Below are positions 3,555-39,862 of a stretch of 45,269 nucleotides of DNA, one piece after another. Every line of letters starts with the position of its first letter. The stretch's first letter is position 1. Source of the DNA: a virus. The stretch lies in IMG/VR virus record IMGVR_UViG_3300013014_000052, positions 1-45,269 of that record; one strand, given 5' to 3'. Position numbers and translations under genes: made by a program. The notes beneath the pieces are model-generated. The model worked only from the letters and a program-made list of their open reading frames with translations, was not told where the DNA came from and searched no databases.

Positions 3555-6488
3555 ATGGCAACGCTAAACGAACTTGGTAGAAATAGTGCTTCTATCACTT
3601 ACGGTCCTTCAAGCACAGGTCAAGAGATGTGGGCCACTTTGCAAGGTTTTGATACATGGGTCAAAAATGATACCATGCAAGGTTCTGCTACAGCGACCGG
3701 TACTAATGTCACCGGCGTTAGCAGCATTTACACAACACAGTTGAGATCCGGTGATGTGGTCATGCTGGCAGGACAGATGCGTACTGTAAGTACAGTGACA
3801 TCAGATACAGCTTTTTCAGTTACAGCTGGATTTACACAAGGCGTTTCGCTTCCTAGTGCTCTTAAGCAGATCAATACCACCTTAACTGGGGTCAGTACAG
3901 CGACCATTCGTGGAACAACTACTGGAACAGTCAGTGTTACTCAGGGTTCAAAAGTAATCACTGGCTTAGGTACTTACTTCCTTTCAGAGATGACCAACAG
4001 TGTAACCACTGCCACTCTAGCAGGTACAGTTTCGTTAGATATCAACGGTAACATTACCGGTTCGGGAACCAGCTTTAACACTGGTGCTGATGGCAGTACT
4101 AACAGGCTACAGCCGGGTGATTCTGTTTGGATGGGCGGACTCTATTACACAATTGCCACTGTAGTCAGCGATACTACGGCCACAATTGTAACTAGTGGTG
4201 CTTCTACCACTGCCACAGTGTTGTCAAGTGTGATTATTGCCAAAGCCCTTAACGGAGCAGTTGGACGCACAATCAACATTAACGGGAAGATACGTCAAAT
4301 TGATGGAATCACCAACAATACGGTAATGAGTGTAAACCTAGCAATGGACTTTACAGACAGCAATTTGCGTGTAAAAGTCTATCCTAGAGGTAACGTCAGT
4401 CTTGCAGGTAACGTTAGTAATGTGACCAGCAGTGGGGCCAACTTCCTATGGGATCTAGTGTCAGGTGATCAAGTTTGGTTAGGTAATGAACTTAGAACTC
4501 TTACATTTGCTAGTTCGTCGGCGACCACTGCTGTTGTTAGTGACTATGTTGGATTTTCAGGAACAGCTACTACTGTAACAAGACAGGGTCTCAGCAGTGT
4601 GCCATTTAAGAGAGATGATACTTATATCAACGCCCCTCTTGGTGCGTTCACAACAGAATTACGTGTCGGTGATGACTTGATTATTGATGGCACAGAAGTT
4701 ACGGTGGCTAGCATTATCAGTAATACACAGTTCCGTTGTACTAACGAATTTACACATACTTTAGCAGGTAGCACCATTTACAAAAAGAAAAAGGTGCATG
4801 GTTTTGTAATGGAGGGTACACGCGAAGGTGTTGCTACAGGTGGTAAGTTAACTTCTTCTACATATGCATCGGGAGTTGTCAATCTTGGAGCAACCTTGCT
4901 ACCTGTTGCATCAGTTGGAACTGCCTTTGTTCAATACGCATTAATCAAAGTTCAGGCCGCTGGCGGAACTCCAATTCCGTTGAATGGAACAGCTGGTCTT
5001 ATTAGTGCCAGCACAGCAGTAAACGGAATTGGAACTCAGTTTACTACCCAGCTGCACGTGGGTGCTGAAATTGTAATTGCTGGGCAATATTTCACTGTAA
5101 CAGCTATTGCTAGCGATACTGCATTAACTGTGAATCAAAATGCCTCCGCTACTGTTTCTTCCACCCCAATTTATCGTACGGTTCCTCTGTACTCATTTAT
5201 TAACAGTGTTGCCAGTAACAACATCACACTAGGGCATGCTACTAAAAATGCTTTAGACAGTAGTGCTGCAACCGCTCCGCTTGTGTTTACACCATTTGGG
5301 GCTACTGACTTTATTGAATATGTATATTCTGCACCTAACAAGACTGCAGAAGCCAGTGTAACTCTGCTTAATACTAGCTTAGATCGCAAATATGTGGCAT
5401 TCCGTTTTTATCCATTGGCCACAGGTGGTGGTTCAGGTAACACTGTTTCTACAGCTGGTAGTCAGTGGAGTTTGCCAGTTTACGAGCGTTGGGTAGCCAG
5501 CTATGGACAAGCCAACGGTGTTGGTATTAACGTAGCTGATGCTAGTACTTCAACAGTGTATTTGAGCGGTGTATATGACCAAACTAACATGACTCAAACC
5601 ACAGGTGGATTTCTTTATATGTTTGCAAAGCCCAGATATTTGATTGTCCAGGGCAAGACATTCAGTAATATCCAGACACAGTGGTTAGGTTGCGTTGAGT
5701 TTGAAAGAGCCCAACCAGAAGATGTTGGAACCGGACTTGGTGTCAGCACTGGTGTTAATATCTTTACTGGTGCTCCAGTATCAGGTACACCCGGTGTTGC
5801 TCCTTGGCCCTGCTATGCCTACTTTAACGGCAACAGATTCCCAGTGGGATCTGCACAAACTCCAACACTACCTATTGCACAGAGTGGACCGGTTCACGGA
5901 GGTATTTTTTCCGTACCAAGAGTGCGTTGTTCAACTGGTGACCTAACTGGTCTAAATGCACATATTTACAGTGCATGTACAATTACTACAGGACGTTGGG
6001 GACACTTGTATGAGTTAGCAGCAGTTGGTAGTTATAACCCAGTACCTACCCCAGCTGGCGGATTCTATACTACAACAGCGGTGGGATCTAATGCTATTCC
6101 TCAACCACATATGGGTCAGCTGGTGCCAGTGTATACTAACGTATACAACAGTAAGCGTTTTATGTTTAGTCCAGTGGTAATTCTTGGACCATCCTACGAT
6201 CCAGATATCCGCGGACGTATTTTTGGTCTGAAGGTTATTCCGAGTGCATTAGGTACATTAATGGACACTGTCAGTGTTACAGTTGACAGCAATGACTTCT
6301 ATGATTCAACACAATCTGCTGCTGATCATTGGGTTATTACAGCTAGTACCGCAACAATTAACTTTACCCTTGCTAACAGCGGATCGTCTGTTAGCCAGAG
6401 CTGGAGAAGTTTAGAGTTTGCTTCTCAACCTACTGCTAACACCACAGCTACATTTGTCAACAACTTCCGTTGGGCCATTCCTGCATAA
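3555..6488 (+). CDS. Virion structural protein with repeated beta modules (977 aa)
   Basis: The start is fixed by a strong AGGAGA site 8 bases upstream. The product is Thr/Ser/Gly-rich with no catalytic motif. Its first half holds about five diverged copies of a 45-60 residue module whose core reads roughly G-T-x-F-T-T-x-L-x-x-G-D-x-I-x-x-x-G, then T-V-x-x-I-x-S-D-T. Clear copies begin near residues 47, 165, 270, 355 and 475. The C-terminal half is a different, Tyr/Trp/Pro-richer domain. The same module appears once in the 1046-aa protein further on, which supports a shared role in the tail, baseplate or fibres. It has its own late promoter upstream and a strong terminator downstream, so it is probably one monocistronic late message. 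The exact virion location is unknown. Confidence 0.8.
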   Translation: MATLNELGRNSASITYGPSSTGQEMWATLQGFDTWVKNDTMQGSATATGTNVTGVSSIYTTQLRSGDVVMLAGQMRTVSTVTSDTAFSVTAGFTQGVSLPSALKQINTTLTGVSTATIRGTTTGTVSVTQGSKVITGLGTYFLSEMTNSVTTATLAGTVSLDINGNITGSGTSFNTGADGSTNRLQPGDSVWMGGLYYTIATVVSDTTATIVTSGASTTATVLSSVIIAKALNGAVGRTININGKIRQIDGITNNTVMSVNLAMDFTDSNLRVKVYPRGNVSLAGNVSNVTSSGANFLWDLVSGDQVWLGNELRTLTFASSSATTAVVSDYVGFSGTATTVTRQGLSSVPFKRDDTYINAPLGAFTTELRVGDDLIIDGTEVTVASIISNTQFRCTNEFTHTLAGSTIYKKKKVHGFVMEGTREGVATGGKLTSSTYASGVVNLGATLLPVASVGTAFVQYALIKVQAAGGTPIPLNGTAGLISASTAVNGIGTQFTTQLHVGAEIVIAGQYFTVTAIASDTALTVNQNASATVSSTPIYRTVPLYSFINSVASNNITLGHATKNALDSSAATAPLVFTPFGATDFIEYVYSAPNKTAEASVTLLNTSLDRKYVAFRFYPLATGGGSGNTVSTAGSQWSLPVYERWVASYGQANGVGINVADASTSTVYLSGVYDQTNMTQTTGGFLYMFAKPRYLIVQGKTFSNIQTQWLGCVEFERAQPEDVGTGLGVSTGVNIFTGAPVSGTPGVAPWPCYAYFNGNRFPVGSAQTPTLPIAQSGPVHGGIFSVPRVRCSTGDLTGLNAHIYSACTITTGRWGHLYELAAVGSYNPVPTPAGGFYTTTAVGSNAIPQPHMGQLVPVYTNVYNSKRFMFSPVVILGPSYDPDIRGRIFGLKVIPSALGTLMDTVSVTVDSNDFYDSTQSAADHWVITASTATINFTLANSGSSVSQSWRSLEFASQPTANTTATFVNNFRWAIPA

Positions 6489-6505: not shown

Positions 6506-6536
6506 AAAATAGCCACCCTAGGGTGGCTATTTTTTT
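6506..6536 (+). terminator. Rho-independent terminator
   Basis: A perfect inverted repeat (aaaatagccacc / ggtggctatttt, about 12 bp with a CTAG loop) is followed by a run of T. It ends the 977-aa gene message and separates it from the giant gene. Confidence 0.9.
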
Positions 6537-6540
6537 AAGG

Positions 6541-6546
6541 TAAATA
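6541..6546 (+). promoter_or_regulatory. Late promoter of the giant gene, leaderless arrangement
   Basis: TAAATA lies between the terminator and the ATG at 6552. If its last A is at -6, as in T4 late promoters, transcription starts on the A of the start codon. No Shine-Dalgarno sequence fits between promoter and ATG. Confidence 0.65.
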
Positions 6547-6551
6547 TTATC

Positions 6552-9500
6552 ATGCCTGCCTTGATATTCCCCGCTCCCGGCTATACTGCTGTAGATAGTA
6601 GCAGTATACTGTCAACCGCTACCTGGTGTTCTTCTGATTCCTTAGGAGCTATTGGTAAATTAAAAACTCAATCTACCATAGTGGCCAGCACTATTAAATT
6701 AGACGTTCCTAAAGTCTCTTCGTCTAGAAAACTGACAACTAATCCTGTAAATTTTACACCTAGTGCCATTAAACAAGGATTTCGAACAAAATCAGTCGAT
6801 AGCCGTATTTTAACCACCAGTACCAACAGATTAGAATCAACTGTTAATACTACTACTTTTGTCTATACACAGACATCAGTAATCACAACATTAATTCCTA
6901 CCACACCTCGCGAGAGATTATACTATGCTCAACTAGTACCAGGAAAATATGGACAGATATTAACCTATAATGGTAACAAAGTTATTGATGTTGTTTCTTC
7001 TCAGTTAAAGACCGGTGTGCTATCTAAACCTATATCTATATTAAGGCCGGATACCTCATCTAGAACATCAATAAGTCTATTGGCTAAACCTATAACTGTT
7101 CTGAGGCCAGATAATACCAGAGCTGCTACTACCAATACCAATATATCTTTAGTCAATAAAGCCATATTTGGTAATAAATTACCTAGAGCATATACAACCA
7201 GTTCCATAAAAGCAGTCAATATCGACATTCAGCTGCCTATAACCGGACAATCTGGATTTACGGCAGATACAGTCAGTTGGTATATTAATGATCAAGACAT
7301 ATTAACAGTTGTTTCACTAGGTACTCCGCTGGTTACGCTGTATTTTGCTAGATCTATATATGCTCCTGTTGCAGGCAGCACGGTAAAGTTGATTAATAGC
7401 AATATTGGGTATTCAAAACAGATTTCTGTTATTTCTGCTACAGACGGATCTATAACATTTACTGATCCGGGAGATTTTCCCAGTATCAGCAGCATGTACA
7501 TTGCTACAGTTACCAGTCAAAATATTGTAAATTATGTAACTACCGTTTATCTAGATAATAGTACCAAAATATTTGACACACCTTCTGTTGCCAAAATTAA
7601 AACAGTTACCAGTCTAAGATCTGATTCAAAGAGATCCATCGGCGTTGAAAATACTAACACAAAATTCAGCAGATTAGAATCAACCATTAATACCACTACC
7701 TTTGTCTATACACAGACATCAGTGTCTACAACACTGGCTCCTACAACACCTCGCGGCAGACTGTATTATGCACAAGTAGCACCTGGAAAGTACGGACAAA
7801 TAATAACCTATAATGGAACTTCAATTACTCAAGGTATTCCAGTACCCGGGATAGGTAAGACAGCCAATGTTGCCAAATTGGCAGCTATGAGTTCTATGGT
7901 CACTAGAGCTACTCTTCAAAAACCCGTGGCTTTATTAAAAGCAGGTGATATTAGGGTTTATAGTACTAATACTAATCAACCTTTGATTAATAAAGTTATA
8001 TTTGGGAAAAAAATTCCCAGGGCCTATACTACCGCTACAGTTAGGACGATTACTACTGATGTTGCAATTCCTATAACAGGTATTTCAGGATCGCCTGCAA
8101 ATACAGATATTATTAGTTGGTATATAAACGATCAAGATATATTAACCGTGATTTCACAGGAATCTTCCCTAATCACTCTTTATTTTGACAAAATTATCTA
8201 TCCTGTAACCGGTACAATTACTTTATCTAGTTCGGCTACAGGCTATAATAAAAAAATATCAGTAATATCTAGTACTGATATTTCCCTTACATTTAGTGAT
8301 CCTGGCGACTTACCTGGTATCAATGCACTGTCTATGATTATTTCTATATCTAAGGATATTATTGATTATTCAACTGTTACCTATCTAGACAACAGCACTA
8401 AAATATTTGACATACCTGGACCTTATAAATTATCTAAAATTGACGCACTAAAGGCAGATACTGCACGTATTTCAAGTGTAGGGAAAACCAATAGTGTAAC
8501 ACGATTGATTAATAAAACCACTATTAATACTGCTGGAAATTTACAAAAACCCGTAGTTTCTCTAAGACCAGATAGTTCATACTCGTCAACAGTCTATGTG
8601 GGAACTGACACTACACAGATTTTCTATGATACTGTAATAAAAAAAGTAATACGAGTAACTACTACAGCTCGTTCTAGTGCAACTAATGTTAATAATCTTG
8701 TTGATTGGATCGATGATGAAACAAATATACTAGTTACGACAGACATTACACCTGCTGTTCCATTATTGACTGTATACATAGATGGAAACAATATACTTAA
8801 TCCTCAACCTACAGTTCAAATTAGAATGGAAACAGTCTCGGCTAGGGCATCTCTTACAACAACTGCATCTATAGTATCTTATACAGCTAATTCTATTACT
8901 ATAGTTGATCCGGGGGAAATTCCGTCCCCAATAGATACTAACGTATGGTTGCATTGGACAACAGTTAGATCAGTAATTACCACAACTATTACTTCAAATA
9001 ATACCAATAAGATTGCTTTAGTCAATAAGGCCACATTTGGTAGTCGTATACCTAGAACATATACAACCTCGACCATGCAGACAGTTTCGGTTGATACTGT
9101 AATATCTGTTATAGGACGCAGTGGATCAACAGCAGACACAGTTAGTTGGTATATTAATGATCAAGATATATTGACCATAGTTCCTCAAGGATCTGAACTG
9201 GTTACTTTATACTTTATTAAACAACCTCGATTGTATTTTACTGCAGGAAGCTCTGTAAAATTGTTTAATTATCTAACTGGGTACTCTAAGCAGATCACTG
9301 TGATTACCAGTACAGATGGGTCGATTACTTTTGCTGATCCTGAAGATATTCCCAGTACTAGTGGTTTACAATTAGTTTATACTGAAACTCAAACAGTATT
9401 TAGAACAGTAACCAACAGCATTTTAGAAAATGGCATTGAGATTTTTGATGCTCCAACTGCTAGTAATTTGGTAAAGCCTATAACAGTGCTAAAAGCTGAT

Positions 9501-12500
9501 TCAACGGCTACTAAAACATCTGGATTAATTAATAAACCTATAGTAAGTTTACGTGATGGCCCTCCCTTAATTCCTACTCCTGGTAAGGTAACTTCGGCAA
9601 TTGTGGTGAGGCCTGATAATAATCAGAGATCTGTTTTATACACTACCGCAACTGGCACAGCCTTGGTTACTAAGGCTATATTTGGAAAAAAATCTACTAG
9701 AGCCATTACCACTGCTACAACCAGAACCGTTACTACAGATATTGCAATTCCTGTAACAGGTATGTCTGCATCTAAATTCACGGCAGATACCGTCAATTGG
9801 TATATTAATGATCAAGATATATTAACAGTAGTTCCTGTTGGAGCTTCGTTAATTACCTTTTTCTTTGCCAATAGTCGTTTAGGCAGCAATATTAGAATAA
9901 CAAACGGCACTAATAATTACATTCGATCGGTTTCTGCTATCTCAATCACAAATTATAGTATAACCTTTACTGATCCCGGTGACCTGCCTGGCATCGGTGA
10001 AATGTATATCTTAAGTTCAACAACACAGAATGTTTTAGATTATCAAACCTATGCTTATCTAGACAGCGGAACTCAGATGTTCGATGTGCCCAATATTTCC
10101 AAATTATCAAGAGTAATATCTGTAAAAGCTGACCCGGCTCAAATTCAAACAATAGGTAAGGCTAAAATTGTTTCTAAATTAGTTCCTAGTATAGGTGTCG
10201 GTATTCCTTTGAGTTTACAAAAACAATTTACAACACTAAGGGCAGATAACAATCAACGGACTGCTACCTATACAACCACTACTCAAATTCCTTTAGTCAA
10301 TAAGGCTACATTTGGAGGTCGGTTTCCGAGAGCTTATACTACTTCTACTACGATCATTACCTATATAGACACTCCTTGGCCAATTACAGGACGTAGTGGA
10401 TCAACAGCCGATACTGTCAATTGGTATATTAATGATCAAGATATATTGACAACTACTAATATCTCAGGATCAACGGTTACTCTATACTTTGCTCAACAGA
10501 ACTTACAGACATTATCGTCTGGCCTTCAGATTCGATTGGTCAATTGGGTTATTGGTTATACCAAATTAGTTACATTGACTGCGGCCACTAATGCATCTAT
10601 AACTTTTGTTGATCCAGGTGATTTGCCCAGCATTAGTGGTATGAATATATTGTTGTCTGTTCCTAAGACTGTAACTGAAAGTTCCTCTGTTGCCTATTAT
10701 GATAGCAGTAACAAAATATTTGATATTCCTACCAGCAGCACATTGATTAGATCTTCTAAGATATCTAAACTGGTAGCTGGAACCTCAATAGATATTCCTG
10801 CTAATCTGCAGAAGCCAGTAACTGCTTTAAGAGCAGACAATAATCAGAGATCTAGCATCTATAATACTGCTACACAAATATCTCTAGTCAATAAGGCCAT
10901 ATTTGGGAAAAAACTCCCCAGAGCCTATACTACCAGCAGCACTTTTAATTTAGTTACCACTGACGTTCAGATACCTGTAATCAGTAGAACTGGCTCTACC
11001 GCAGATACAGTCAGCTGGTATATCAATGATCAAGACATATTAACCGTAATCCCTGTAGGCTCTGCATTGATTACATTTTATTTTGCTAGACCTGCAGACA
11101 ACGTGATCATAAACAACAGTACTATAAAAATTATCAATTCAAATATAGGTTATTCAAAACAGGTTTCTATAATTTCTAAAACAGAAAATTCTGTAACATT
11201 TGCTGATCCCGGTGATCTTCCCAGCATCAGCAACATGTTTATTATAGGAACAACTAGCCAATATGTGATAGATTATTCTACTGTTACCTATTTAGACAGC
11301 AGCACTGAAATATTCTATACACCAACATCAGGTAATACCAGTATCAGACCAGTTAAACAACAATTGTTTGCTGAAACTGTCCGTATTCAAACCCCGGGAA
11401 AAACCAGCAGAATATCAAAATTAATTGCAGGTACTAATATAACAACTTCGGCTAGTTTGCAAAAACAATTTGCAGTTCTAAAGGCAGATAACAATCAAAG
11501 GACCACTACCTTCTCGACTGCTACACAGGCACCATTAGTTACTAAGGTCATATTCGGGAAAAAACTTCCTAGAGCCATTACTACCGCTACAACTAGGATA
11601 GTTACTACCGACATTTCGATTCCTATAACTGGCATAAGTGGATCTACTGCGGATACAGTTAATTGGTATATTAATGATCAAGATATTCTGACCGTGATTC
11701 CTTTGGGATCTGCGTTGGTTACACTGTATTTTGCCAAAATATCATATGTTATTTCAGGCACAATCAAACTAACCAACACCAATATTGGATATTTTAAATC
11801 AATTTCAGTAATATCCAGTACTGACGGATCGATTACATTTACCGATCCTGGGGATTTGCCTAGTATTAGCGGAATGTATATTATAATTTCAACTACACAG
11901 AGTGTGATAGATTATCAAACCTATACTTACTTAGATAGTAGTACTCAAATGTTTGATGTGCCTAGAGCATCAAAGCTATCTGTAATCACACAATTAAAAT
12001 CTGATTCAACTCGCATTCAACCCGTAGGAAGAACATCTACGGTTAATAAGTTAATAGGTAAAACGTCTCCCGGTACATCAGGTAATTTACAAAAACCCAT
12101 AGTTTCTCTAAGACCAGATAGCTCATACCCATCAAAAACCTATGTTAGTACTGATACTACGCAGATTGTCTATGACACTGTGATAGAACAGGTAATTAGA
12201 ATTTCTACTACTGCTCGATCTGGAATCAGTAATACAAATAATCTTGTTGATTGGCTTGATGATGAAACAGATATACTAGTCATAACAAACAGCACACCTG
12301 CTACGCCATTACTGACCCTATATATAGGTAATAATAGTATTGTTAACCCTCAGCCTGTTGTTAAAATACAATCTCAAAATGGTGATCCTTTAACAATAGC
12401 ATCGATAGTATCCTTTACACCTAATTCTATTACCATTGTCGACCCGGGCACGATCTCATCCCCAATAGACAATAGAATATCGTTGTATTGGACAACTGCT

Positions 12501-15500
12501 AGATCAGTGATCACCGCATCTCTTTCTTCAAATGACCTTAACAAGAATCCCTTAGTTAATAAAATTACATTCGGCAGTCGTATCCCTCGGGCCTATACTA
12601 CTTCTACTACTAGCATTATCTATGTAGATACTCCGTGGCCCGTTACTGGACGCAGCGGATCAACAGCTGACACTGTTAATTGGTATATTAATGATCAGGA
12701 CATTTTAAATACGACTCAGTCTCAGGAATCTTCAGTTACACTATATTTTGCTCAACAGAATTTACAGACATTATCAGCTGGCCTACAAATAAGATTGCTC
12801 AATTGGATCATTGGTTACACTAAATTAGTCACATTGACTGCTGCCACTAATGCATCTATAACTTTTGTTGATCCAGGCGATCTACCCAGTATCAGTGGAT
12901 TAAGCGTTTTATTATCTGTACCTCAAACTATAGTTGACAATAGTTCAATAACTCGATTTGAAAGCAGCAACGAGCTGATTAATACTCCTAAATCTGGCAA
13001 TTTGTCTAAGTCTCTAATAGTGCTAAGGGCCGAGTCTACTGCTACTAAGATGTCTGGATTACTCAGCAAACCTATTGTAAAATTAGCCAGTGGTCCTTCG
13101 ATAGTCACTAGAACTGGAAAAGTAACTTCAGCAATAGCCTTAAGGCCTGACAACAATCAGAGAGCCAATCTATACACTACCGCAACCGGTACAGCGTTGA
13201 TCAATAAGGCTATATTTGGAAAAAAATCTACTAGGGCTACTACTACAGCCACAACTAGAACTGTTACCACTGATATTGTAACCCCTGTGATAGGCATATC
13301 TGCATCTAAATACACAGCAGACACTGTTAATTGGTATATCAATGACCAAGATATATTAACGGTGAGTCCTGTAGGACCTTCATCAGTTACTTTTTTCTTT
13401 GCCAATAGTCGTTTAGGCAGCAATATTAGAATAACAAACGGTACCAGTAATTATATTCGATCAATTTCTGCAATTTCACTCACTAATTACAGTATAACTT
13501 TTGCTGATCCTGGTGATTTACCCGGCATCGGTGAAATGTATATCCTAAGTTCAACAACACAGAATGTTTTAGATTATCAAACCTATGCTTATCTAGACAG
13601 TGGCAATCAAATGTTTGATATACCTAGAGTTTCAAAATTGTCAAGAGCAATATCTGTAAAAGCTGACTCGGTTAGAATTCAAACGCCATCAACCTTATCT
13701 AAAAACACAGCTAAGTTAGTATCGGCAGCCAACGTTAGTGGATTGGCGAAATTAACAAGATCTTTACTGATTAAAGGAGTACCATTTACTTCTTCTACGG
13801 TTACTAATATCCCTCTAGTTAACAAGGCTATATTTGGTAAACGAGTTCCTCGGGCCTACACCAGTGCAACTACTAGGACAATTTATACAGATATTCAAAT
13901 TTCTGTCACAGGTATAACAGGATCAACAGCAGACACAGTCAGTTGGTATATCAATGACCAAGACATTTTAACTGTAATTTCTGTAGGATCTGCATTAGTT
14001 ACACTTTATTTTGCCAAGCAGAATCAAAACTATTTTTCGGTAGGATCTCAAGTTAGGGTATTCAACAGTAATATAGGATACAATCAACTAGTAACCTTGA
14101 CTTCTTTTACAGACGGCTCTATTACTTTTGTCGATCCTGGAAATCTGCCCAGCATCAGCGGAATGTATGTAATTGCTACGCAATCTCAAAATATCATTGA
14201 TTATATTACGATCAGCAATTTAGATTATAGTACTTCTATATTCAGTATTCCGACAGTCAACAGTTTGATCAAATCACAGATTCAGATTAGAAGCCCACGA
14301 ACAATCAGTTCAGCCTATACACTGACCAATACCGCCAATAGATTAGAATCAACAGTCAATACCACTACCTTTGTCTATACACAGACATCGGTGACCACAA
14401 CACTGTCTCCAAATACCGCTCGTGAGAGACTGTATTATGCTCAAATGGCTCCTGGCAGATATGGACAAATAATAACCTACAATGGTAGTTCTATAGCACC
14501 GGGTGGAATTCTTTCGACATCTACCAATAGATTAGAATCAACGGTCAATACCACCACCTTTGTCTATACACAGACATCGGTGACTACAACATTGGCTCCT
14601 ACCACTGCTCGTGAGAGACTGTATTATGCTCAATTGGCACCGGGCAAATACGGTGTAACATTCACTTATAATGGTAGATCAATTGCACCGGGTGGAATTC
14701 TTTCGACATCTACCAGTAGATTAGAATCAACAGTCAATACCACCACCTTTGTCTATACACAGACATCGGTGATCACAACATTAGCCCCTACTACAGCTAG
14801 GGAGAGATTATACTATGCTCAATTGGCACCAGGCAAATACGGCGTAACATTTACTTATAATGGTAAATTTTTATCCAGCGGATTGAATGTTCCTGCAACT
14901 GATGCTCTTCAACAAAGGGCCAGAGACAATAGATTCTACGGAATAGCACCAGTTGAGGTCAATAGGAATTTAGAATTCTTTAATGATACTGACTTACCTG
15001 GTGAAATAAGTTTTCCGGTTAGATATCAATTGACTAATGTTTTAACTACTAGCAATAGCATAGAATCATACATTTACGATTATGACATACTGACTTATTC
15101 AACGTATCAAAATTCTCCTCTTACTAGAACATTTTTATTAGATTATAATTCATTAACTTTACCTTCTAATACTTCTACTAATGCTAGTTACATTCCTTTT
15201 GTAGCTGGTAGCACAGTTAAGATTTCCAGCAAGAAAACAAAATATGCTAATACCTTTACAGTAGTACAGTCTAATTACAACAGTGTTACGGTATACGACG
15301 ATCCTTCTATACCTATACTACCAGAGGCTAACGATGTAGTCATTTCCGGTCTTCCTTCTGTATACCCTATAGCTTTGATTTCTACCAACAAGGCTCCTGT
15401 TACAGCAAGAGAAAATTTGTATTATTTTAATATCAGTCCAGGTCTAAGATCCGGTAAGAATTTAACTGTTGGCGAAGCTTTGAGAACTCCTAGTGCGGCA

Positions 15501-18500
15501 AAATTGACACCATCTCTAGTGGTCAAGGCCTTGCCCAACAATTTATCAGCTAGTGTAACCGGCCGAGTTCCTATCAAACTGAGTTCAGACAGTATCAGAT
15601 TAACTGTTAACAGGCTAACACAAGCCGCTACTAGATTAAAGGCTGATCGAAGCAGCATTATACCTTCTAACTTAGAATTGATCTATTTTGTTGATTATTT
15701 TTCTTCTTCTACGGTGACCACTTCGACTTTTGTGGTCCCTACGGCCTCTATACAAATTAATCGTGCTCCGCAGAGTCCGAGAGAAGTGCTCTATTATGCC
15801 CTAATGGGGCCTGGAATTAGAAATGGGGGTATTACATTAACTGCCTTTGGAAAACAAATAGGTGATGCTAATGCCAAACTACCAATTAGCACCATAAACA
15901 AGAATATTTCTCCATTAAAGGCAGATACGACAAAAATAATTGTTGGTAAAACCAGTATTCCTTCAACGCTAGTAGGCAGATTTTCAGTAGCATTATCTGG
16001 GAATTTACAAAAAGCTCTTCAAGTATTAAAAGCAGATAGTTCTTATCCTACAAAATCTTATACTGCTGTAGATACAAGCAGTACTGTTTATGCCAGTTAC
16101 TCTGTGTCTGTAACAGGTATTAGTAGAAACTTATCTACAGCTGACACAGTAGCATGGTATATCAATGATCAAGATATATTAACAGTTACTCCTGAAACAA
16201 TTAATTTAATTACCCTATATTTTATACCTAGTGCAAATTCAATGTTAGATGCTGTATTATATCTATCTCAACCGAGTGCCGGGTATTCTAAAATTATTAC
16301 CAGTTTCAGTTATACCAATTCGTCTATAACTTTTGTAGATCCGACAGATCTACCTGACATATCTGGAATGACCATAAATTGGTCTAGATCAAATACAGTG
16401 ATCTCTACAACAATTACTGGTCAAGATAATAATAAGATTCCATTAGTCAATAAGGCTATATTTGGTAAAAAACTACCACAAGCTAGTGTTTCTTCGGTGA
16501 CTAAAACTATTGATGTTGATGCTTCTATACCTATAACTGCTATTAATAGACCAGGGCCGACAGCTGACACTGTTAATTGGTATATCAACGACACCGACAT
16601 ACTAACTACTAGTGTAACTACAGATAATCTAGTTACGCTATTTTTTAATAGACAAAATCTACAGATTTTTTCTGCAGGGGATGTAATAAGATTAGCTGAC
16701 TATAATCTTAACTATATTAAACAAGTCACCTTGTCATCGGCTACTTCTATATCCGTAACATTTACAGATCCGGGGGATCTAGTCAGTACTAACAATCTTA
16801 AAATTATTGTAAGCAGTACTCAGACCATTACTGACTTTCAAACCACTACTTATTTAGATAGCAGCACTAAAATATTTGAGTCACCTACATCTAGCAACTT
16901 GGTCAAGTCCTCAATTAAATTACGTCCTGATACTGTAAAATTACAGACAATATCTGGAAAGATTCCATTTAAATTAGCAGATAGTCCTCCATTAATTTCT
17001 AAACCAGGTAAGGTAATATCGACAGCAATACTTAGACCGGACAGCAGTTATAGCTCGCCTATCTATACATCGACCAGTACCACATCTGTAGTCTATGACA
17101 GTTATTATGCCCTTGTTACCAGCAGCAGCGAAACAGGAGTTACTACTGATGTAGTGTCTTGGTATATTGATGATCAAGATATATTAACAGTATCTCCATT
17201 TGGTTCTAAATTACTAACCTTGTTCTTTGACCCAATTCAAGATTCTTTATCTGGGTTAACGATAACTATTTCCCATGGTCCTACAAATTATTACAGAGTA
17301 ATAACCAATTTTACCTCCACTAGATCATCTATAACATTCCTAAATCCAGGAGATATATTCAGTACCAACGGGATGATATTAACCTGGTCTAAGCCAAGAA
17401 CTGTAGTTACTGCCACCGCCATTGGCCAAAATCTCAACAAAATACCTTTAGTCAACCGGGTTATATTTGGTAAGAAATTACCAAGGGCTCGTATTTCGAC
17501 AGTAACTAGAACCATAGATGTTGATACTCTATTGCCTGTTATTGGTCGTAGTAGTACTGAATCAACTGCAGATACAGCCAATTGGTATCTCAATGATCAG
17601 GATATATTAAGCACTTCATATTTGGCTAATTCAACAGTGACCATTTACCTTGACAAGCAGAACATACAGACTTTTACAGCAGGCAGTCAGATTCGATTGG
17701 CCAATTATCGAATGGGATATATTAGACAATTTACTGTAATATCTGCCACTGATACCTCAATTACTTTTAATGATCCTGGCGATTTACCCGAAATTAGTAG
17801 TCTTAATGTAATAGTTAGTGTAGCAAAAACTGTTACTGATTTCCAAACCGATACCTATCTAGAAAATACAACAGAAGTATTTGAATCACCAAAATCTAGT
17901 AACTTGGTCAAATCCTTAATTACACTTCGGCCTGATCCCACAAAATTACAGACTATTCTTGGAAAGGTGCCATTCAAAGTAGTAGATGGACCACCTAACA
18001 TATCAAAGTCTCTAGCTAATTTACAGAAATCTCTAATACAGCTAAGACCAGACAGCAGTTATAGCTCTCCTACTTATACATCGACCAGTACTACATCTGT
18101 AACCTACGATAACTATTCTGTGGCAGTTATAGGTAGCGATTTATCTACGGCTAATACCGTAGCATGGTATATTGAAGATAGAGATGTACTAAATTTATTC
18201 CCTACAGGATCATCTTTGATTACACTGTATTTTACACCAGGACCAGATTCAGTGGCAGGTGTTGTGGTACAGTTGGTTCAAAACACTATTGGGTATACCA
18301 GAACCATTACCAGTTTTACCTACACCAGTTCTTCAATAACATTTCTAAACCCGGGCGATTTGCCCAGCACGGGCGGTATGACCATAAATTGGTCCAGACC
18401 AAAGACCACAATCACTGCCACTGCTATTGGACAAGATATTAACAAGATACCATTGGTTACCAAGGCTATATTTGGTAAGAAATTGCCACGTCCTCGCACA

Positions 18501-19253
18501 GTAGCAGTTACTAATACCATTTATGTAGATAGTTCGATTCCTATTTTAGCCATCAACAAACCTACATCTACAGCTAATACTGTGGCATGGTATATTGAAG
18601 ACAGAGATATATTGACCACTACTGCTGTTACTGATTCTACGACTACTTTGATCTTTGCTCGACAGACACTGAAACAATTTACAACAGGAGAGCAAATAAG
18701 ATTAGCTGATTACTCTCGCAACTATGTTAAACAGGTCACAGTTATATTTGCTACCGATACGTCAGTGACGTTCACTGATCCAGGCGATCTAGTATTCACT
18801 AATAACCTTAATATTTTGGTCAGTGTGGCACAGACTGTAACTGACTCACAAACCACTACCTATTTAGACAGCAGTATTGAAATATTTGATACTCCTAAAA
18901 TCAGTAATCTGGCCTATAAACAGCTAGTACAATTAAAAGCGGAACCGGCCGTGTTTAAAGAAGTTGGAAAGGTTAAAATACCATTAAAATTAATACCTAC
19001 AGGCGAGATATTTACAACAGCTAAATTATTAACCTTTGCTATATTAAAGGCTGATAGGAACAAGTTAGTTACAGAAAATCTATCAATTACTGGTTCTAGA
19101 TCGATTTATAAATTAACAGACGACGTTTCAATCAAATTGGTATTAGGTCGCGGACAAATCATTAAACTGCATACAGGTAACTTTAAGTTGGGCAGTGTGG
19201 GCATTCAGGATCCCGCTGCACAGAAGAAAGAGCCTATTCAATTTTGGAATTGA
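6552..19253 (+). CDS. Giant repeat protein (4233 aa), putative adhesin or long fibre
   Basis: One uninterrupted 12.7-kb frame, unusually long for a phage structural gene. About 16 units carry the signature W-Y-I-N-D-Q-D-I-L-T (Trp codons from 7278 to 18588). Two variants read D-W-x-D-D-E-x-x-I-L (8706, 12252) and one degenerate copy lies near 15065. A typical unit is about 200 residues: N-K-A-I-F-G-K-K-L-P-R-A, then T-A-D-T-V-x-W-Y-I-N-D-Q-D-I-L, V-T-L-Y-F, S-I-T-F-x-D-P-G-D-L-P-S-I-S and Y-L-D-S-S-T-x-I-F-D, then a linker with L-R-x-D. A second module (L-E-S-T-V-N-T-T-T-F, ending Y-Y-A-Q-x-x-P-G-K-Y-G) occurs five times. I see one cysteine (Cys26), no signal peptide and no enzyme motif. It lies among fibre genes with a late-type promoter, so a fibre or surface adhesin is inferred. 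I do not recognise the family. Confidence 0.85.
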   Translation: MPALIFPAPGYTAVDSSSILSTATWCSSDSLGAIGKLKTQSTIVASTIKLDVPKVSSSRKLTTNPVNFTPSAIKQGFRTKSVDSRILTTSTNRLESTVNTTTFVYTQTSVITTLIPTTPRERLYYAQLVPGKYGQILTYNGNKVIDVVSSQLKTGVLSKPISILRPDTSSRTSISLLAKPITVLRPDNTRAATTNTNISLVNKAIFGNKLPRAYTTSSIKAVNIDIQLPITGQSGFTADTVSWYINDQDILTVVSLGTPLVTLYFARSIYAPVAGSTVKLINSNIGYSKQISVISATDGSITFTDPGDFPSISSMYIATVTSQNIVNYVTTVYLDNSTKIFDTPSVAKIKTVTSLRSDSKRSIGVENTNTKFSRLESTINTTTFVYTQTSVSTTLAPTTPRGRLYYAQVAPGKYGQIITYNGTSITQGIPVPGIGKTANVAKLAAMSSMVTRATLQKPVALLKAGDIRVYSTNTNQPLINKVIFGKKIPRAYTTATVRTITTDVAIPITGISGSPANTDIISWYINDQDILTVISQESSLITLYFDKIIYPVTGTITLSSSATGYNKKISVISSTDISLTFSDPGDLPGINALSMIISISKDIIDYSTVTYLDNSTKIFDIPGPYKLSKIDALKADTARISSVGKTNSVTRLINKTTINTAGNLQKPVVSLRPDSSYSSTVYVGTDTTQIFYDTVIKKVIRVTTTARSSATNVNNLVDWIDDETNILVTTDITPAVPLLTVYIDGNNILNPQPTVQIRMETVSARASLTTTASIVSYTANSITIVDPGEIPSPIDTNVWLHWTTVRSVITTTITSNNTNKIALVNKATFGSRIPRTYTTSTMQTVSVDTVISVIGRSGSTADTVSWYINDQDILTIVPQGSELVTLYFIKQPRLYFTAGSSVKLFNYLTGYSKQITVITSTDGSITFADPEDIPSTSGLQLVYTETQTVFRTVTNSILENGIEIFDAPTASNLVKPITVLKADSTATKTSGLINKPIVSLRDGPPLIPTPGKVTSAIVVRPDNNQRSVLYTTATGTALVTKAIFGKKSTRAITTATTRTVTTDIAIPVTGMSASKFTADTVNWYINDQDILTVVPVGASLITFFFANSRLGSNIRITNGTNNYIRSVSAISITNYSITFTDPGDLPGIGEMYILSSTTQNVLDYQTYAYLDSGTQMFDVPNISKLSRVISVKADPAQIQTIGKAKIVSKLVPSIGVGIPLSLQKQFTTLRADNNQRTATYTTTTQIPLVNKATFGGRFPRAYTTSTTIITYIDTPWPITGRSGSTADTVNWYINDQDILTTTNISGSTVTLYFAQQNLQTLSSGLQIRLVNWVIGYTKLVTLTAATNASITFVDPGDLPSISGMNILLSVPKTVTESSSVAYYDSSNKIFDIPTSSTLIRSSKISKLVAGTSIDIPANLQKPVTALRADNNQRSSIYNTATQISLVNKAIFGKKLPRAYTTSSTFNLVTTDVQIPVISRTGSTADTVSWYINDQDILTVIPVGSALITFYFARPADNVIINNSTIKIINSNIGYSKQVSIISKTENSVTFADPGDLPSISNMFIIGTTSQYVIDYSTVTYLDSSTEIFYTPTSGNTSIRPVKQQLFAETVRIQTPGKTSRISKLIAGTNITTSASLQKQFAVLKADNNQRTTTFSTATQAPLVTKVIFGKKLPRAITTATTRIVTTDISIPITGISGSTADTVNWYINDQDILTVIPLGSALVTLYFAKISYVISGTIKLTNTNIGYFKSISVISSTDGSITFTDPGDLPSISGMYIIISTTQSVIDYQTYTYLDSSTQMFDVPRASKLSVITQLKSDSTRIQPVGRTSTVNKLIGKTSPGTSGNLQKPIVSLRPDSSYPSKTYVSTDTTQIVYDTVIEQVIRISTTARSGISNTNNLVDWLDDETDILVITNSTPATPLLTLYIGNNSIVNPQPVVKIQSQNGDPLTIASIVSFTPNSITIVDPGTISSPIDNRISLYWTTARSVITASLSSNDLNKNPLVNKITFGSRIPRAYTTSTTSIIYVDTPWPVTGRSGSTADTVNWYINDQDILNTTQSQESSVTLYFAQQNLQTLSAGLQIRLLNWIIGYTKLVTLTAATNASITFVDPGDLPSISGLSVLLSVPQTIVDNSSITRFESSNELINTPKSGNLSKSLIVLRAESTATKMSGLLSKPIVKLASGPSIVTRTGKVTSAIALRPDNNQRANLYTTATGTALINKAIFGKKSTRATTTATTRTVTTDIVTPVIGISASKYTADTVNWYINDQDILTVSPVGPSSVTFFFANSRLGSNIRITNGTSNYIRSISAISLTNYSITFADPGDLPGIGEMYILSSTTQNVLDYQTYAYLDSGNQMFDIPRVSKLSRAISVKADSVRIQTPSTLSKNTAKLVSAANVSGLAKLTRSLLIKGVPFTSSTVTNIPLVNKAIFGKRVPRAYTSATTRTIYTDIQISVTGITGSTADTVSWYINDQDILTVISVGSALVTLYFAKQNQNYFSVGSQVRVFNSNIGYNQLVTLTSFTDGSITFVDPGNLPSISGMYVIATQSQNIIDYITISNLDYSTSIFSIPTVNSLIKSQIQIRSPRTISSAYTLTNTANRLESTVNTTTFVYTQTSVTTTLSPNTARERLYYAQMAPGRYGQIITYNGSSIAPGGILSTSTNRLESTVNTTTFVYTQTSVTTTLAPTTARERLYYAQLAPGKYGVTFTYNGRSIAPGGILSTSTSRLESTVNTTTFVYTQTSVITTLAPTTARERLYYAQLAPGKYGVTFTYNGKFLSSGLNVPATDALQQRARDNRFYGIAPVEVNRNLEFFNDTDLPGEISFPVRYQLTNVLTTSNSIESYIYDYDILTYSTYQNSPLTRTFLLDYNSLTLPSNTSTNASYIPFVAGSTVKISSKKTKYANTFTVVQSNYNSVTVYDDPSIPILPEANDVVISGLPSVYPIALISTNKAPVTARENLYYFNISPGLRSGKNLTVGEALRTPSAAKLTPSLVVKALPNNLSASVTGRVPIKLSSDSIRLTVNRLTQAATRLKADRSSIIPSNLELIYFVDYFSSSTVTTSTFVVPTASIQINRAPQSPREVLYYALMGPGIRNGGITLTAFGKQIGDANAKLPISTINKNISPLKADTTKIIVGKTSIPSTLVGRFSVALSGNLQKALQVLKADSSYPTKSYTAVDTSSTVYASYSVSVTGISRNLSTADTVAWYINDQDILTVTPETINLITLYFIPSANSMLDAVLYLSQPSAGYSKIITSFSYTNSSITFVDPTDLPDISGMTINWSRSNTVISTTITGQDNNKIPLVNKAIFGKKLPQASVSSVTKTIDVDASIPITAINRPGPTADTVNWYINDTDILTTSVTTDNLVTLFFNRQNLQIFSAGDVIRLADYNLNYIKQVTLSSATSISVTFTDPGDLVSTNNLKIIVSSTQTITDFQTTTYLDSSTKIFESPTSSNLVKSSIKLRPDTVKLQTISGKIPFKLADSPPLISKPGKVISTAILRPDSSYSSPIYTSTSTTSVVYDSYYALVTSSSETGVTTDVVSWYIDDQDILTVSPFGSKLLTLFFDPIQDSLSGLTITISHGPTNYYRVITNFTSTRSSITFLNPGDIFSTNGMILTWSKPRTVVTATAIGQNLNKIPLVNRVIFGKKLPRARISTVTRTIDVDTLLPVIGRSSTESTADTANWYLNDQDILSTSYLANSTVTIYLDKQNIQTFTAGSQIRLANYRMGYIRQFTVISATDTSITFNDPGDLPEISSLNVIVSVAKTVTDFQTDTYLENTTEVFESPKSSNLVKSLITLRPDPTKLQTILGKVPFKVVDGPPNISKSLANLQKSLIQLRPDSSYSSPTYTSTSTTSVTYDNYSVAVIGSDLSTANTVAWYIEDRDVLNLFPTGSSLITLYFTPGPDSVAGVVVQLVQNTIGYTRTITSFTYTSSSITFLNPGDLPSTGGMTINWSRPKTTITATAIGQDINKIPLVTKAIFGKKLPRPRTVAVTNTIYVDSSIPILAINKPTSTANTVAWYIEDRDILTTTAVTDSTTTLIFARQTLKQFTTGEQIRLADYSRNYVKQVTVIFATDTSVTFTDPGDLVFTNNLNILVSVAQTVTDSQTTTYLDSSIEIFDTPKISNLAYKQLVQLKAEPAVFKEVGKVKIPLKLIPTGEIFTTAKLLTFAILKADRNKLVTENLSITGSRSIYKLTDDVSIKLVLGRGQIIKLHTGNFKLGSVGIQDPAAQKKEPIQFWN
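8535..10150 (+). repeat. Long-range intragenic duplication, copy 1
   Basis: This segment contains the DW-type unit (8706), a WY unit (9147) and another WY unit (9798). It pairs with 12080-13684 at an offset of 3534 bases, measured at the Trp codons 9147/12681 and 9798/13332. Some stretches are nearly identical in DNA, for example around 9861-9907 against 13395-13441. Confidence 0.8.
12080..13684 (+). repeat. Long-range intragenic duplication, copy 2
   Basis: This is the partner of 8535-10150. The middle unit (Trp codon 12681) resembles the unit at 10422 more than its positional partner at 9147 downstream of about 12590, so this copy looks mosaic. Confidence 0.75.
14340..14910 (+). repeat. 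Tandem triplet of 189-nt LEST modules
   Basis: Three copies of the L-E-S-T-V-N-T-T-T-F module start at Leu codons 14343, 14532 and 14721, exactly 189 nt (63 codons) apart, with high DNA identity. Two further copies lie alone at 6831 and 7674, and two degenerate relatives near 15390 and 15760. Confidence 0.9.
15945..18960 (+). repeat. Tandem 1005-nt super-repeat, three copies
   Basis: Each copy holds two WY units 423 nt apart. Trp codons are at 16155/16578, 17160/17583 and 18165/18588, so both series have an exact 1005-nt period. Local six-base indels balance out within the units. Outer boundaries are approximate. Confidence 0.85.
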
Positions 19254-19293: not shown

Positions 19294-19539
19294 ATGTCAA
19301 CATTTGCCGAGCTCGATGCAGCTTTTCCTGGTCATACACATTTCTATCAGATCAATGGGCTTTCTTTTAGTGAAGCACTAGATCGTTGTGCTAGACTTAC
19401 AGGTGACGCTGCCGAAGTATTAAATTACAATGGCATGATTATTTTTGCCGTTAAACATCATCTCGAAAGTGACGGAATATCTTGGCTAAATCCTGTTTCC
19501 GGTAGCCCAGTGGATGTTACTCCCAGCAGCGGTAACTAA
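19294..19539 (+). CDS. Small late protein of unknown function (81 aa)
   Basis: An AAAGGAA ribosome-binding site precedes the ATG, and separate late promoters lie upstream and downstream. The product is acidic to neutral, with one Cys and two adjacent His residues (K-H-H) near residue 55, and a Ser/Pro/Gly tail. I recognise no family. Its place between two large structural genes, with its own late promoter, suggests a virion or assembly protein such as a fibre chaperone, but nothing in the sequence proves this. Confidence 0.75.
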   Translation: MSTFAELDAAFPGHTHFYQINGLSFSEALDRCARLTGDAAEVLNYNGMIIFAVKHHLESDGISWLNPVSGSPVDVTPSSGN

Positions 19540-19566: not shown

Positions 19567-22500
19567 ATGGCCAAGCACTTACTACTAGAAGCATATTCAT
19601 TTGCACCATCAAGCTCTCCCGGAGCAGCCACCATTACCTTAACTGGTAAGGCTCTAAGGAGAGAGCAGGTAATTTTAATTACTAATGTGACATCTAACAG
19701 GGTCTATTACAACTTTGCTGATTCAGGATTAACGTTTGCACAGTTTACAGCGACCACTGCATTAAACGTTGAATCAACTGTGATGACTTTAAGTACCAGT
19801 ACAGTCGGAGCCAGCTCAGGTGACAAGCTCAGTATTATCATTGAAGATGTCTATGAAACTTTCCAACCCGCAGAAACTTACATGGATCCGGTGGGCAAGT
19901 TCAGAGTCAGTCAACCACAGAGTTTGATCGACACTGACTTTGAATATGGCGTGCAGCCTACCAAGTGGGAAACATTGAATCTGATGAATAACAGACCAAG
20001 TGCTTTCTTTGACCCAACGGCTCCTATAACATTTACGGCCATTACAGGTAACGGCACCAGATTGGTCACTATCACGCTGGCCAGTACTGCTGGTATTGAT
20101 ACCAGCACTCCGATTTTTATTCAAGATACTACAGACCCTAATGCCAACGGATGGTACCTTCCACAAGCAGTTGTGGTCAATACCAGCATTACTTACTATG
20201 CTAGGGCCAATGTGACCAACGGCAGCATTTTTGATCAGACCAAGACCTATCTGTTCCAAGGTACTTTTTACACAGGTGCAGGTATTCTTTGTTCAACAGT
20301 GACCAACGCTGCCTTTACCAGCACCAACCTTGCACTTACGACTATGACTGTGACCACCATTAACAATCATGGGCTCAGCATAGGTGATGCCATCTATATA
20401 ACAAACGTTACAGGTGCTAGCAGTGTTAATCCCAATGGTGGATACTTTATCAAAACTACACCGTCGACCAGCCAGTTTACTTTTGAGGCAGCAGCGGCCC
20501 CGGTAGCGGTCACTGGTGGTTTTAGTCCTAACTACAGTGCTAGTGGAGCAACGGTTACTATTACTGCTGATTCGGCTGGACGAGTTATTACAGTTACAAC
20601 AGGTACTACTGCTGGCTCTAACTATAAATTAGGTGACGTAGTGTCAGTAGGTGCCGGTGGCCTTAACTGTTTCTTGAGAGTTAACAATGTAGTCGCAGGT
20701 GTTCCCAACAGTTGGCAGATCTATCAGTCCGGTACTGGTTATACTGCAGGGGTGACTTCTAACGTAGCTACTACTTTCATATACAGTGCTAACATGATTT
20801 TTGCTAGGCCCTGGGGTAATGCTATTCATAGACCATTTGATGGAGGTGTGTATTTTACCGCAGGTGCTCCATACCATGGTAATCAGCTGATACGACAGAC
20901 ACGTAGATACTTCCGTTACCAATCTGGTAAAGGTATTCAGTTTAGCACTGGTAGTTGTATGACCAGTCCATTTATTTTAGATAACCTAACATGGTCGGGC
21001 GGTTTAATCACAGTGACCACCAAGTTTCCGCACAACATGTTCACCGGGGCCAGAATTAAGATTCAGTTCGCCAATGAAGGCGGGTATAATGGCACATGGG
21101 TGATCAATGCCGCTCCTACTGACCTTACATTTAATATAGGGTATGCTCCGACCTTGACCAGTCCGGCCACCGGCCCCTACCAGGTTCAGCCATTCCAGTG
21201 GGACGGATCTTATATTAGATTGGGCATGTTTGATCAACAGAACGGATTCTTCTGGGAGTATGACGGTAGTGTGTTAAGTGTCAATAAAAAAGGTGCTACA
21301 TTCCAGTTGTTCGGTTACATCGCTACTCTAGGTAACGGTGGATATGTCTGTACAGGCATTAACACACAGTGGGCCTCACAGTTGAGCCCAGGTAACTTTG
21401 TAAGCATTCGCGGCAGCAGTCACACTGTGGTCAGCATTGAAAGCAACACCAGTATGACCATCTATCCTGACTACAGAGGAGTCTCAATTGTTCCTCCAAC
21501 ACAGTGTATTATCAGCAGAATTGACCAAGTCAGGGTCACGCAGAGTCAGTTTAACATTGATCGCTGCGACGGAACCGGTAACAGTCTCTATAACTGGGAT
21601 GTAACCAAGATGCAGATGTGGTACATTGACTATACTTGGTACGGTGCTGGTGCTATCCGTTTTGGATTTAAGAATAGCAGAGGTGAGGTATTCTATGTTC
21701 ATAGATTGGCACATGCTAACAAGGAAACCGAAGCTTTCATGCGTTCAGGCAACTTGCCAGGACGTTACGAGGTCAGTACCATTGCTTCCTTTACTAAACT
21801 GACAGCAACCTTGAGCAACAGTGAAACTGGTTCCATACAGGTTGCGTCAACTGAGGGATTTCCTTCAACAGGAACCGCAGTGGTCAGCGCTTCAGGTAAT
21901 GCCAATTCAGTGATCGAGTATATTGGATACACTGGTAAAACTGCTACTACATTTACAGGGTTAACCAGAGCACGACAGGATCTATCAGGTCCGTTGGGAT
22001 TAGTCGGAGGCGGTGGTACCAGTACTGCCGCTACATTTACGTTGAGTGCTACGGCACCGCATGCTGTAACATTCTTTAGTCCACAGTGTAGCAACACAAT
22101 TAGCCACTGGGGTAGTTCGGTTATGATGGACGGACGTTTTGACAGTGATAAATCGTTAGTGTTCGTTGCAGGACAACAGACTACTTTCACCAACTTAGCT
22201 TTAGGTACACAGTTTCCACTGATCAGTATTCGTATTTCTCCTAGTGTTGACAGTGGTATTACTGGCTTCTATGGAGCACGTGAGTTGGTCAATCGTATGC
22301 AGCTGACACTGGTACAGATGGATGCATTTACTACAGGAGCTAACATGAGCTTCTTGGTTACCCTGCGACTGAATGGATTCTTTACTTCAGGAATTCCATT
22401 GTTTACACCAGCAGGTGGATCTAGTTTAGCACAAGTAGCCGCTCATGCTACATCAGATAGGATTGCAGGCGGCGAAACTATATTTGGTTTCTGGACCAGC

Positions 22501-22707
22501 ACTCCAGGTGTGACCAGCCAAGACTTGAGCCTGGTGCGAGATCTAGGTAACAGTATTCTAGGTGGCGGAACCAGTAACTTTGCCAGTACAACGGGTACCA
22601 ACAGATATCCAGATGGTCCGGACATTCTAACCATTGTTTGCCAACCATTTGCTTCGGCGACTAACAGTATTAACGCACGTATCAGTTGGACAGAAGCACA
22701 GGCCTAA
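19567..22707 (+). CDS. Virion structural protein, baseplate/fibre type (1046 aa)
   Basis: ATG follows an AGGAAA site, and the gene ends just before a terminator. The segment around residues 105-140 (V-S-Q-P-Q-S-L-I-D-T-D-F-E-Y-G, then P-T-K-W-E-T-L-N-L) resembles a conserved stretch I associate with large structural proteins of T4-like aquatic phages. Near residues 575-625 it carries one copy of the beta module repeated in the 977-aa protein (T-G-I-N-T-Q-W, then V-S-I-x-S-N-T). The rest is Thr/Ser/Gly-rich and beta-like, with no catalytic motif. A late promoter drives it. A baseplate wedge or fibre-attachment role is likely by family resemblance; the equivalent T4 gene number cannot be set from sequence alone. 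Confidence 0.8.
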   Translation: MAKHLLLEAYSFAPSSSPGAATITLTGKALRREQVILITNVTSNRVYYNFADSGLTFAQFTATTALNVESTVMTLSTSTVGASSGDKLSIIIEDVYETFQPAETYMDPVGKFRVSQPQSLIDTDFEYGVQPTKWETLNLMNNRPSAFFDPTAPITFTAITGNGTRLVTITLASTAGIDTSTPIFIQDTTDPNANGWYLPQAVVVNTSITYYARANVTNGSIFDQTKTYLFQGTFYTGAGILCSTVTNAAFTSTNLALTTMTVTTINNHGLSIGDAIYITNVTGASSVNPNGGYFIKTTPSTSQFTFEAAAAPVAVTGGFSPNYSASGATVTITADSAGRVITVTTGTTAGSNYKLGDVVSVGAGGLNCFLRVNNVVAGVPNSWQIYQSGTGYTAGVTSNVATTFIYSANMIFARPWGNAIHRPFDGGVYFTAGAPYHGNQLIRQTRRYFRYQSGKGIQFSTGSCMTSPFILDNLTWSGGLITVTTKFPHNMFTGARIKIQFANEGGYNGTWVINAAPTDLTFNIGYAPTLTSPATGPYQVQPFQWDGSYIRLGMFDQQNGFFWEYDGSVLSVNKKGATFQLFGYIATLGNGGYVCTGINTQWASQLSPGNFVSIRGSSHTVVSIESNTSMTIYPDYRGVSIVPPTQCIISRIDQVRVTQSQFNIDRCDGTGNSLYNWDVTKMQMWYIDYTWYGAGAIRFGFKNSRGEVFYVHRLAHANKETEAFMRSGNLPGRYEVSTIASFTKLTATLSNSETGSIQVASTEGFPSTGTAVVSASGNANSVIEYIGYTGKTATTFTGLTRARQDLSGPLGLVGGGGTSTAATFTLSATAPHAVTFFSPQCSNTISHWGSSVMMDGRFDSDKSLVFVAGQQTTFTNLALGTQFPLISIRISPSVDSGITGFYGARELVNRMQLTLVQMDAFTTGANMSFLVTLRLNGFFTSGIPLFTPAGGSSLAQVAAHATSDRIAGGETIFGFWTSTPGVTSQDLSLVRDLGNSILGGGTSNFASTTGTNRYPDGPDILTIVCQPFASATNSINARISWTEAQA

Positions 22708-22759: not shown

Positions 22760-22766
22760 ATAAATA
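22760..22766 (+). promoter_or_regulatory. Late promoter (ATAAATA), nearly leaderless
   Basis: ATAAATA sits between the terminator and the ATG at 22774. Initiation six bases downstream would fall at about 22772, leaving two bases before the start codon and no ribosome-binding site. Confidence 0.65.
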
Positions 22767-22773
22767 TCAAACT

Positions 22774-39850: not shown

Positions 39851-39857
39851 ATAAATA
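39851..39857 (+). promoter_or_regulatory. Late promoter (ATAAATA), leaderless arrangement
   Basis: If the final A is at -6, transcription begins exactly on the A of the ATG at 39863. An AGGAG at 39843-39847 lies upstream of the promoter, usable only by read-through transcripts. Confidence 0.6.
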
Positions 39858-39862
39858 ACTAG

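Follow-up and report, generated by a model that had tools for sequence, protein, structure and literature searches.

What might a phage do with a single protein of 4233 residues? The window analysed here, the whole 45,269-nucleotide IMG/VR virus record IMGVR_UViG_3300013014_000052, contains one uninterrupted frame of 4233 codons that runs from an ATG at position 6552 to position 19253. An initial annotation of this DNA had described the product as about 19 copies of an unrecognised WYINDQDIL unit, with a possible role in adsorption. We give a probability of roughly two in three to the reading that the gene encodes a giant modular fibre (adhesin) on the virion surface of an uncultured T4-like phage, where it would contact a host receptor or glycan.

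Repeat structure of the giant protein

The giant gene and its internal repeats are located as follows.

6552-19253, + strand: giant gene, 4233 aa, 19 predicted barrel units plus linkers
7152-18872, + strand: WYINDQDIL-type units modelled as beta-barrels, n = 19, from HMM envelopes
7979-13684, + strand: 2.2 kb block at 7979-10150 with a second copy at 11531-13684, 72% DNA identity, offset 3552 bp
14335-14865, + strand: 63-aa RERLYYAQLAPG module in three tandem or near-tandem copies, with other single copies elsewhere

An HMM built from the giant protein's own units found 19 of them in the single frame, in agreement with the size and copy number first described. The strict signature W[YL][IL][NDE]D.D[IV]L is present in 16 of the 19 units, spread over aa 243-4013, and the other three, at aa 719, 1901 and 2840, diverge from it; T-A-D-T-V and DPGDLP, which had been reported as well kept parts of the unit signature, were indeed found in most copies. 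The spacing from unit to unit is 141-375 aa, and a two-unit period of 335 aa occurs three times close to the end of the protein. Because most units match a family-built profile at E 1e-35 or better and the gene also shows DNA self-matches, the repeat array is far beyond chance. Two further repeat types were found, namely a module of about 63 aa ('PTTARERLYYAQLAPGKYG') and linker repeats of 20-25 aa. The L-R-x-D linkers and the near absence of cysteine noted initially also held on recounting (15 L-R-x-D, together with 9 L-x-A-D, and one Cys in 4233 aa). Threonine accounts for 14.6% of the residues.

Sequence searches and predicted fold of the unit

Neither the whole giant protein nor 62 unit sequences gave a credible match to Pfam or PHROG. 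Against Pfam, the 62 units produced weak lone matches only, none of them to a common family, and the Ig-like, Big and cadherin profiles were not matched. The Pfam matches of the giant protein to DUF6081 and Phage_pb10_N span 13-27 residues, no stretch passing alone, and were judged to reflect composition. The two routes suggested at the outset for assigning the unit to a known family, a profile search and Foldseek of a predicted structure, found no PDB sequence below E 0.1 and no structure at E <= 1e-3, respectively; the latter result is not taken to mean a new fold. The earlier view that the unit is not a recognised repeat is therefore borne out at the level of Pfam, PHROG and PDB sequence families, and the unit is a domain family absent from Pfam and PHROGs.

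Modelling of a single unit by AlphaFold2 with the 62 unit sequences (pLDDT 84.6) gave a small barrel that is entered and left through two long strands (model residues 17-38 and 118-136), the WYINDQDIL stretch being of low confidence in this monomer model (54-56). In a two-unit run, AlphaFold2 produced two separately folded barrels with low-confidence linkers (mean pLDDT 64) and again a low-confidence WYINDQDIL stretch, and for this reason we make no claim on how the units are arranged along the fibre. The protein had been expected to form a very long rod or a string of beta domains. Separate beta-barrels agree with the string, but one rod defined by its units is not supported, since some family members at this locus have none of them, and barrels joined by low-confidence linkers do not show a stiff one. 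WYINDQDIL, well kept yet not ordered in the monomer model, could at a guess be an interface between chains.

Structural comparison of the unit model, which is barrel-like but may yet fit an Ig-like beta-sandwich, reached a Z of 7 at most by VIA-align. The N-terminal barrel of the V-ATPase B-subunit and the E1 FCCH barrel resemble the unit in how the barrel is arranged, with Z 6-7 for some 70 residues, but have no sequence match to it and no functional link, and a Z of 6-7 (below 8) may reflect merely a common arrangement. A tail tape measure was also considered and rejected, the protein being rich in Thr, Ser and beta structure and its modelled units consisting of strands with no long helices.

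Neighbouring genes and phage group

The genes on either side of the giant gene are listed below.

2-2824: collagen-like (GPQGPQGVT) fibre gene, its start beyond the left edge of the window, with 27-bp tandem repeats
3555-6488, + strand: 977-aa fibre-like gene, ends FRWAIPA, syntenic in relatives
19294-19539, + strand: 81-aa partner gene, invariably paired with the giant gene; may act as chaperone or adaptor
19567-22707, + strand: 1046-aa protein, phrog_5838 / T4-GC_460, annotated as a cyanophage virion structural protein

The placement of the giant gene among fibre genes, on which its function had first been proposed, is supported by the collagen-like gene upstream, which has hits among the tail fibre PHROGs as well as to Pfam Collagen, and by the adjoining cassette. 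Of the 977-aa, giant, 81-aa and 1046-aa proteins, only the 1046-aa protein has cultured relatives. Part of the neighbourhood is labelled 'head and packaging' by PHROG. Gp23-type capsid genes on three long related contigs, together with class I ribonucleotide reductase genes within the window, place the phage by gene content in a T4-like group.

Two other reading frames were noted in the window. A 653-aa ORF (30437-32398) that adjoins the ribonucleotide reductase genes, away from the main fibre cluster, has a weak tail-spike PHROG match, and a 294-aa protein (22774-23658) weakly matches a metallo-protease PHROG and contains a zinc-protease-like HELVHYKQ motif.

A late promoter close to the start codon

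Two signals lie between the 977-aa gene and the giant gene.

6510-6536, + strand: hairpin plus T-tract of an intrinsic terminator, downstream of the 977-aa gene; folding energy as RNA -18.4 kcal/mol, z -4.8
6541-6546, + strand: TAAATA, the core of a T4-type late promoter, with 5 nt between it and the ATG

The order 5' of the giant gene, which reads hairpin, T-tract, TAAATA, 5 nt and ATG, is kept from hairpin to ATG in 8 aligned relatives (9 sequences in all), whose stems are different but complementary, and the spacing from TAAATA to ATG is 5-8 nt among aligned family members. Of the 29 gene starts, 13 have TAAATA in the 60 nt that precede them, where random positions give a mean of 0.95, and the motif was the most enriched among all rearrangements of its letters, so that the late-type promoter proposed for the giant gene is well founded. 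The late promoter of T4 is TATAAATA at -13 to -6, the first base varying among T4-like phages (PMC1524935), and that of cyanophage S-PM2 is NATAAATA (PMC2984593). With its TAAATA core, the giant gene carries a TATAAATA-type promoter, as would a T4-like late gene. Given the spacing of 5-8 nt, its mRNA is predicted to be leaderless (spacing 5) or near-leaderless, with a start 1-3 nt before the ATG (spacing 6-8). TAAATA also precedes the ATG by 7 nt in a 294-aa gene and by 5 nt in a 354-aa gene (22761-22774 and 39852-39863), and leaderless late mRNAs may therefore be common here.

A family with fixed ends and a strictly linked partner

The two ends of the giant protein are encoded as follows.

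6552-6581, + strand: N-terminal peptide MPALIFPAPG, kept in MPAxVFPAPG-like form in members whose N-terminus was read
19152-19250, + strand: C-terminal peptide ending ..DPAAQKKEPIQFWN; 21 distinct C-termini align

Scans of viral contigs with the unit itself, as a single protein or as the A1 profile, gave almost no matches, and the family was detectable only through its neighbouring genes. Querying IMG/VR with the 1046-aa protein returned 55 loci; all seven that bear a giant gene have the 81-aa gene, and all 48 others have neither. A profile search with the 81-aa protein returned 25 loci, each with a gene end of the P-I-Q-F-W-N type just upstream (25/25). A DNA pattern for the C-terminal peptide plus stop retrieved the same family together with chance matches in other frames. 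Seven-codon MPIQFWN ORFs in nine contigs, where the pattern lies out of frame within another conserved coding stretch, were likewise dismissed as chance. The cassette order in IMG/VR contigs is the 977-aa fibre-like gene (where seen), the giant gene, the 81-aa partner and the 1046-aa protein, and the giants of known length have about 965, 992, 1128, 1720, 1855, 2159, 2394, 2781, 3868, 4233, 4476 and 5408 aa.

The copy in the window has both family termini (MPAxVFPAPG at the N-terminus, P-[IV]-Q-F-W-[NS] at the C-terminus), with the 81-aa partner directly downstream and then the 1046-aa homologue. Since same-locus members without any units exist, it is not the units that define the family but its conserved peptides at both termini, together with the 81-aa partner and the layout of the promoter. 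Four members (L112, L099, L097 and L109) share a domain after MPALVFPAPG, within the N-terminal 215 aa, that in three or four of them may by eye be like carbohydrate-binding-module-like phage domains; it had no match among PDB sequences. One cassette (L106, IMGVR_UViG_3300043410_001892) is identical to that of a 171-kb contig (L105) but belongs to a record of 372 kb that also contains a Gp23-type capsid gene; this record would be a jumbo T4-like phage, or else contigs have been merged in it.

A tblastn search of 50,697 phage records gave no match to any query, whether one of two large stretches of the giant, one of two shorter relatives, or the neighbours of 977 and 81 aa; the giant has no relative among the cultured phages of the collection. 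We found no description of the family in the literature and no 81-aa relative in bacterial genomes, hence no clue to the host.

A mosaic middle that changes fast

Between its ends the protein varies widely among same-locus members. Its middle draws on three building blocks that recur, the WYINDQDIL barrel, the 60-aa 'PRENLYYFNLAPG' module and the 20-25-aa linker repeats ('NLQKQIEVIRGGAS', 'LRADNNQR'). The barrel is not detectable in L102 and L115; Laminin_G_3 is found in L109 (E 5e-43) and L114 (E 7e-37), Gly_rich_2 or phrog_4474 in L019, L109, L114 and L103 (a PHROG match for L103), and same-locus giants also show tail-fibre PHROG matches. L019 (= L107) and L103 have barrels alongside the Gly-rich domain, which ties the variants together. 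The glycine-rich tail-fibre domain PF21722 / phrog_4474 found inside these four giants is absent from the 6552-19253 copy, and no lectin, receptor-binding, LamG or Gly-rich domain was recognised in that copy by PHROG or Pfam. In one phage pair the 1046-aa proteins are 76% identical and the giants 25-28% in most best stretches, which indicates that the giant changes far faster than its neighbours. These comparisons indicate that the middle grows by repeat duplication and swaps modules between fixed ends. With LamG and Gly-rich domains in same-slot relatives, the adsorption role put forward in the initial annotation becomes plausible.

Comparison with known systems

The cyanophage virion structural protein T4-GC_1121 (S-MbCM7_179, SRSM4_037) occupies the same genomic slot as the giant gene, with the T4-GC_460 / phrog_5838 gene next to it on the downstream side. 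It is large and carries Laminin_G_3 in S-RSM4 and S-MbCM7, as do L109 and L114, but it has 1161-1383 aa, no barrel units, other termini and no 81-aa gene, and the 6552-19253 protein has no sequence similarity to it. Gp85 of S-CREM2, a long tail fibre of a Synechococcus phage, has 4971 aa and was detected in virions by MS with 286 unique peptides (PMC10665884). Like the giant it is a repetitive protein of about 5000 aa from a T4-like phage, but its sequence is unrelated, its repeats are different, and its C-terminus looks by eye like an endosialidase-type chaperone domain. It gave no match to the unit HMM and no significant blastp match, so it was rejected as a homologue and remains a precedent only. 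Cyanomyoviruses lack T4 g34, g35 and g37, and uncharacterised structural proteins are suspected as replacements (PMC2984593).

Function of the giant protein

Taken together, the T4-like group, the lost fibres of cyanomyoviruses and the S-CREM2 precedent make a long modular surface fibre the best reading. It is consistent with the conserved late promoter and terminator layout, the fixed synteny, the virion structural neighbour and the collagen-like fibre gene upstream, as well as with the 81-aa co-occurrence, the fixed termini, the LamG, Gly-rich and tail-fibre matches and the fast change. Against it stand the lack of a cultured relative of the giant and of a recognised lectin or receptor-binding domain in the 6552-19253 copy, the 'head and packaging' label, and the low confidence of the WYINDQDIL motif in the monomer models, which show neither a trimer nor a rod.

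That label, carried by a neighbour family, would also suit a decoration or whisker protein on the tail or head, serving stability or weak sticking to surfaces or particles and not receptor binding. Many equal repeats and free length variation would fit such a coat, and phage CBB has hair-like tail appendages whose gene is unknown (PMC5259590). We consider this unlikely, because the swapping of LamG and Gly-rich modules into this locus in relatives and the adjoining fibre genes favour specific contact, although a decorating lectin would still be possible. A late protein outside the particle, for example one that lysis sets free or that acts on the envelope of the host, is quite improbable given a gene that sits in a virion-gene cassette with strict synteny and a product in which PHROG and Pfam found no enzymatic domain. 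It is also conceivable that misassembled repeats created the length and copy number, since the gene is repetitive and the contig metagenomic, and the copy number could be off by one block. We regard an artefact as highly improbable: the units are divergent (below 90% DNA identity), the frame is open across 12.7 kb, and family giants were found independently in many contigs.

As a surface fibre, the giant protein would be made late and placed on the particle, most likely on the tail. Its terminal peptides may serve as assembly or anchoring points, with the 81-aa protein as a putative dedicated chaperone or adaptor. Contact with host surface glycans or receptors would be made by the array of barrels, and in relatives by LamG lectin and Gly-rich domains. 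A shift in repeat number would then alter reach and valency.

Implications for T4-like phages

Fibres of giant size and structural proteins that bear lectin domains are both already known from phages. What is new is the uncatalogued domain, the design of fixed ends and free middle, to which a partner gene is strictly linked, and a late-promoter layout that predicts leaderless mRNA. We tentatively suggest, at somewhat less than even odds, that such proteins form a new class of phage adhesin: fixed ends and a dedicated 81-aa partner would hold an array of about 1000-5400 residues that can lengthen, shorten and swap lectin, Gly-rich and novel-barrel modules and is translated from a leaderless T4-type late mRNA. 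T4-like phages of aquatic bacteria are often without recognisable T4 long tail fibres, and this locus is a concrete candidate for their substitute in an uncultured clade. The promoter layout predicts leaderless translation for one of the longest phage genes, and the variation in length and modules between fixed ends allows a test of whether reach, valency or host range is tuned by the number of repeats.
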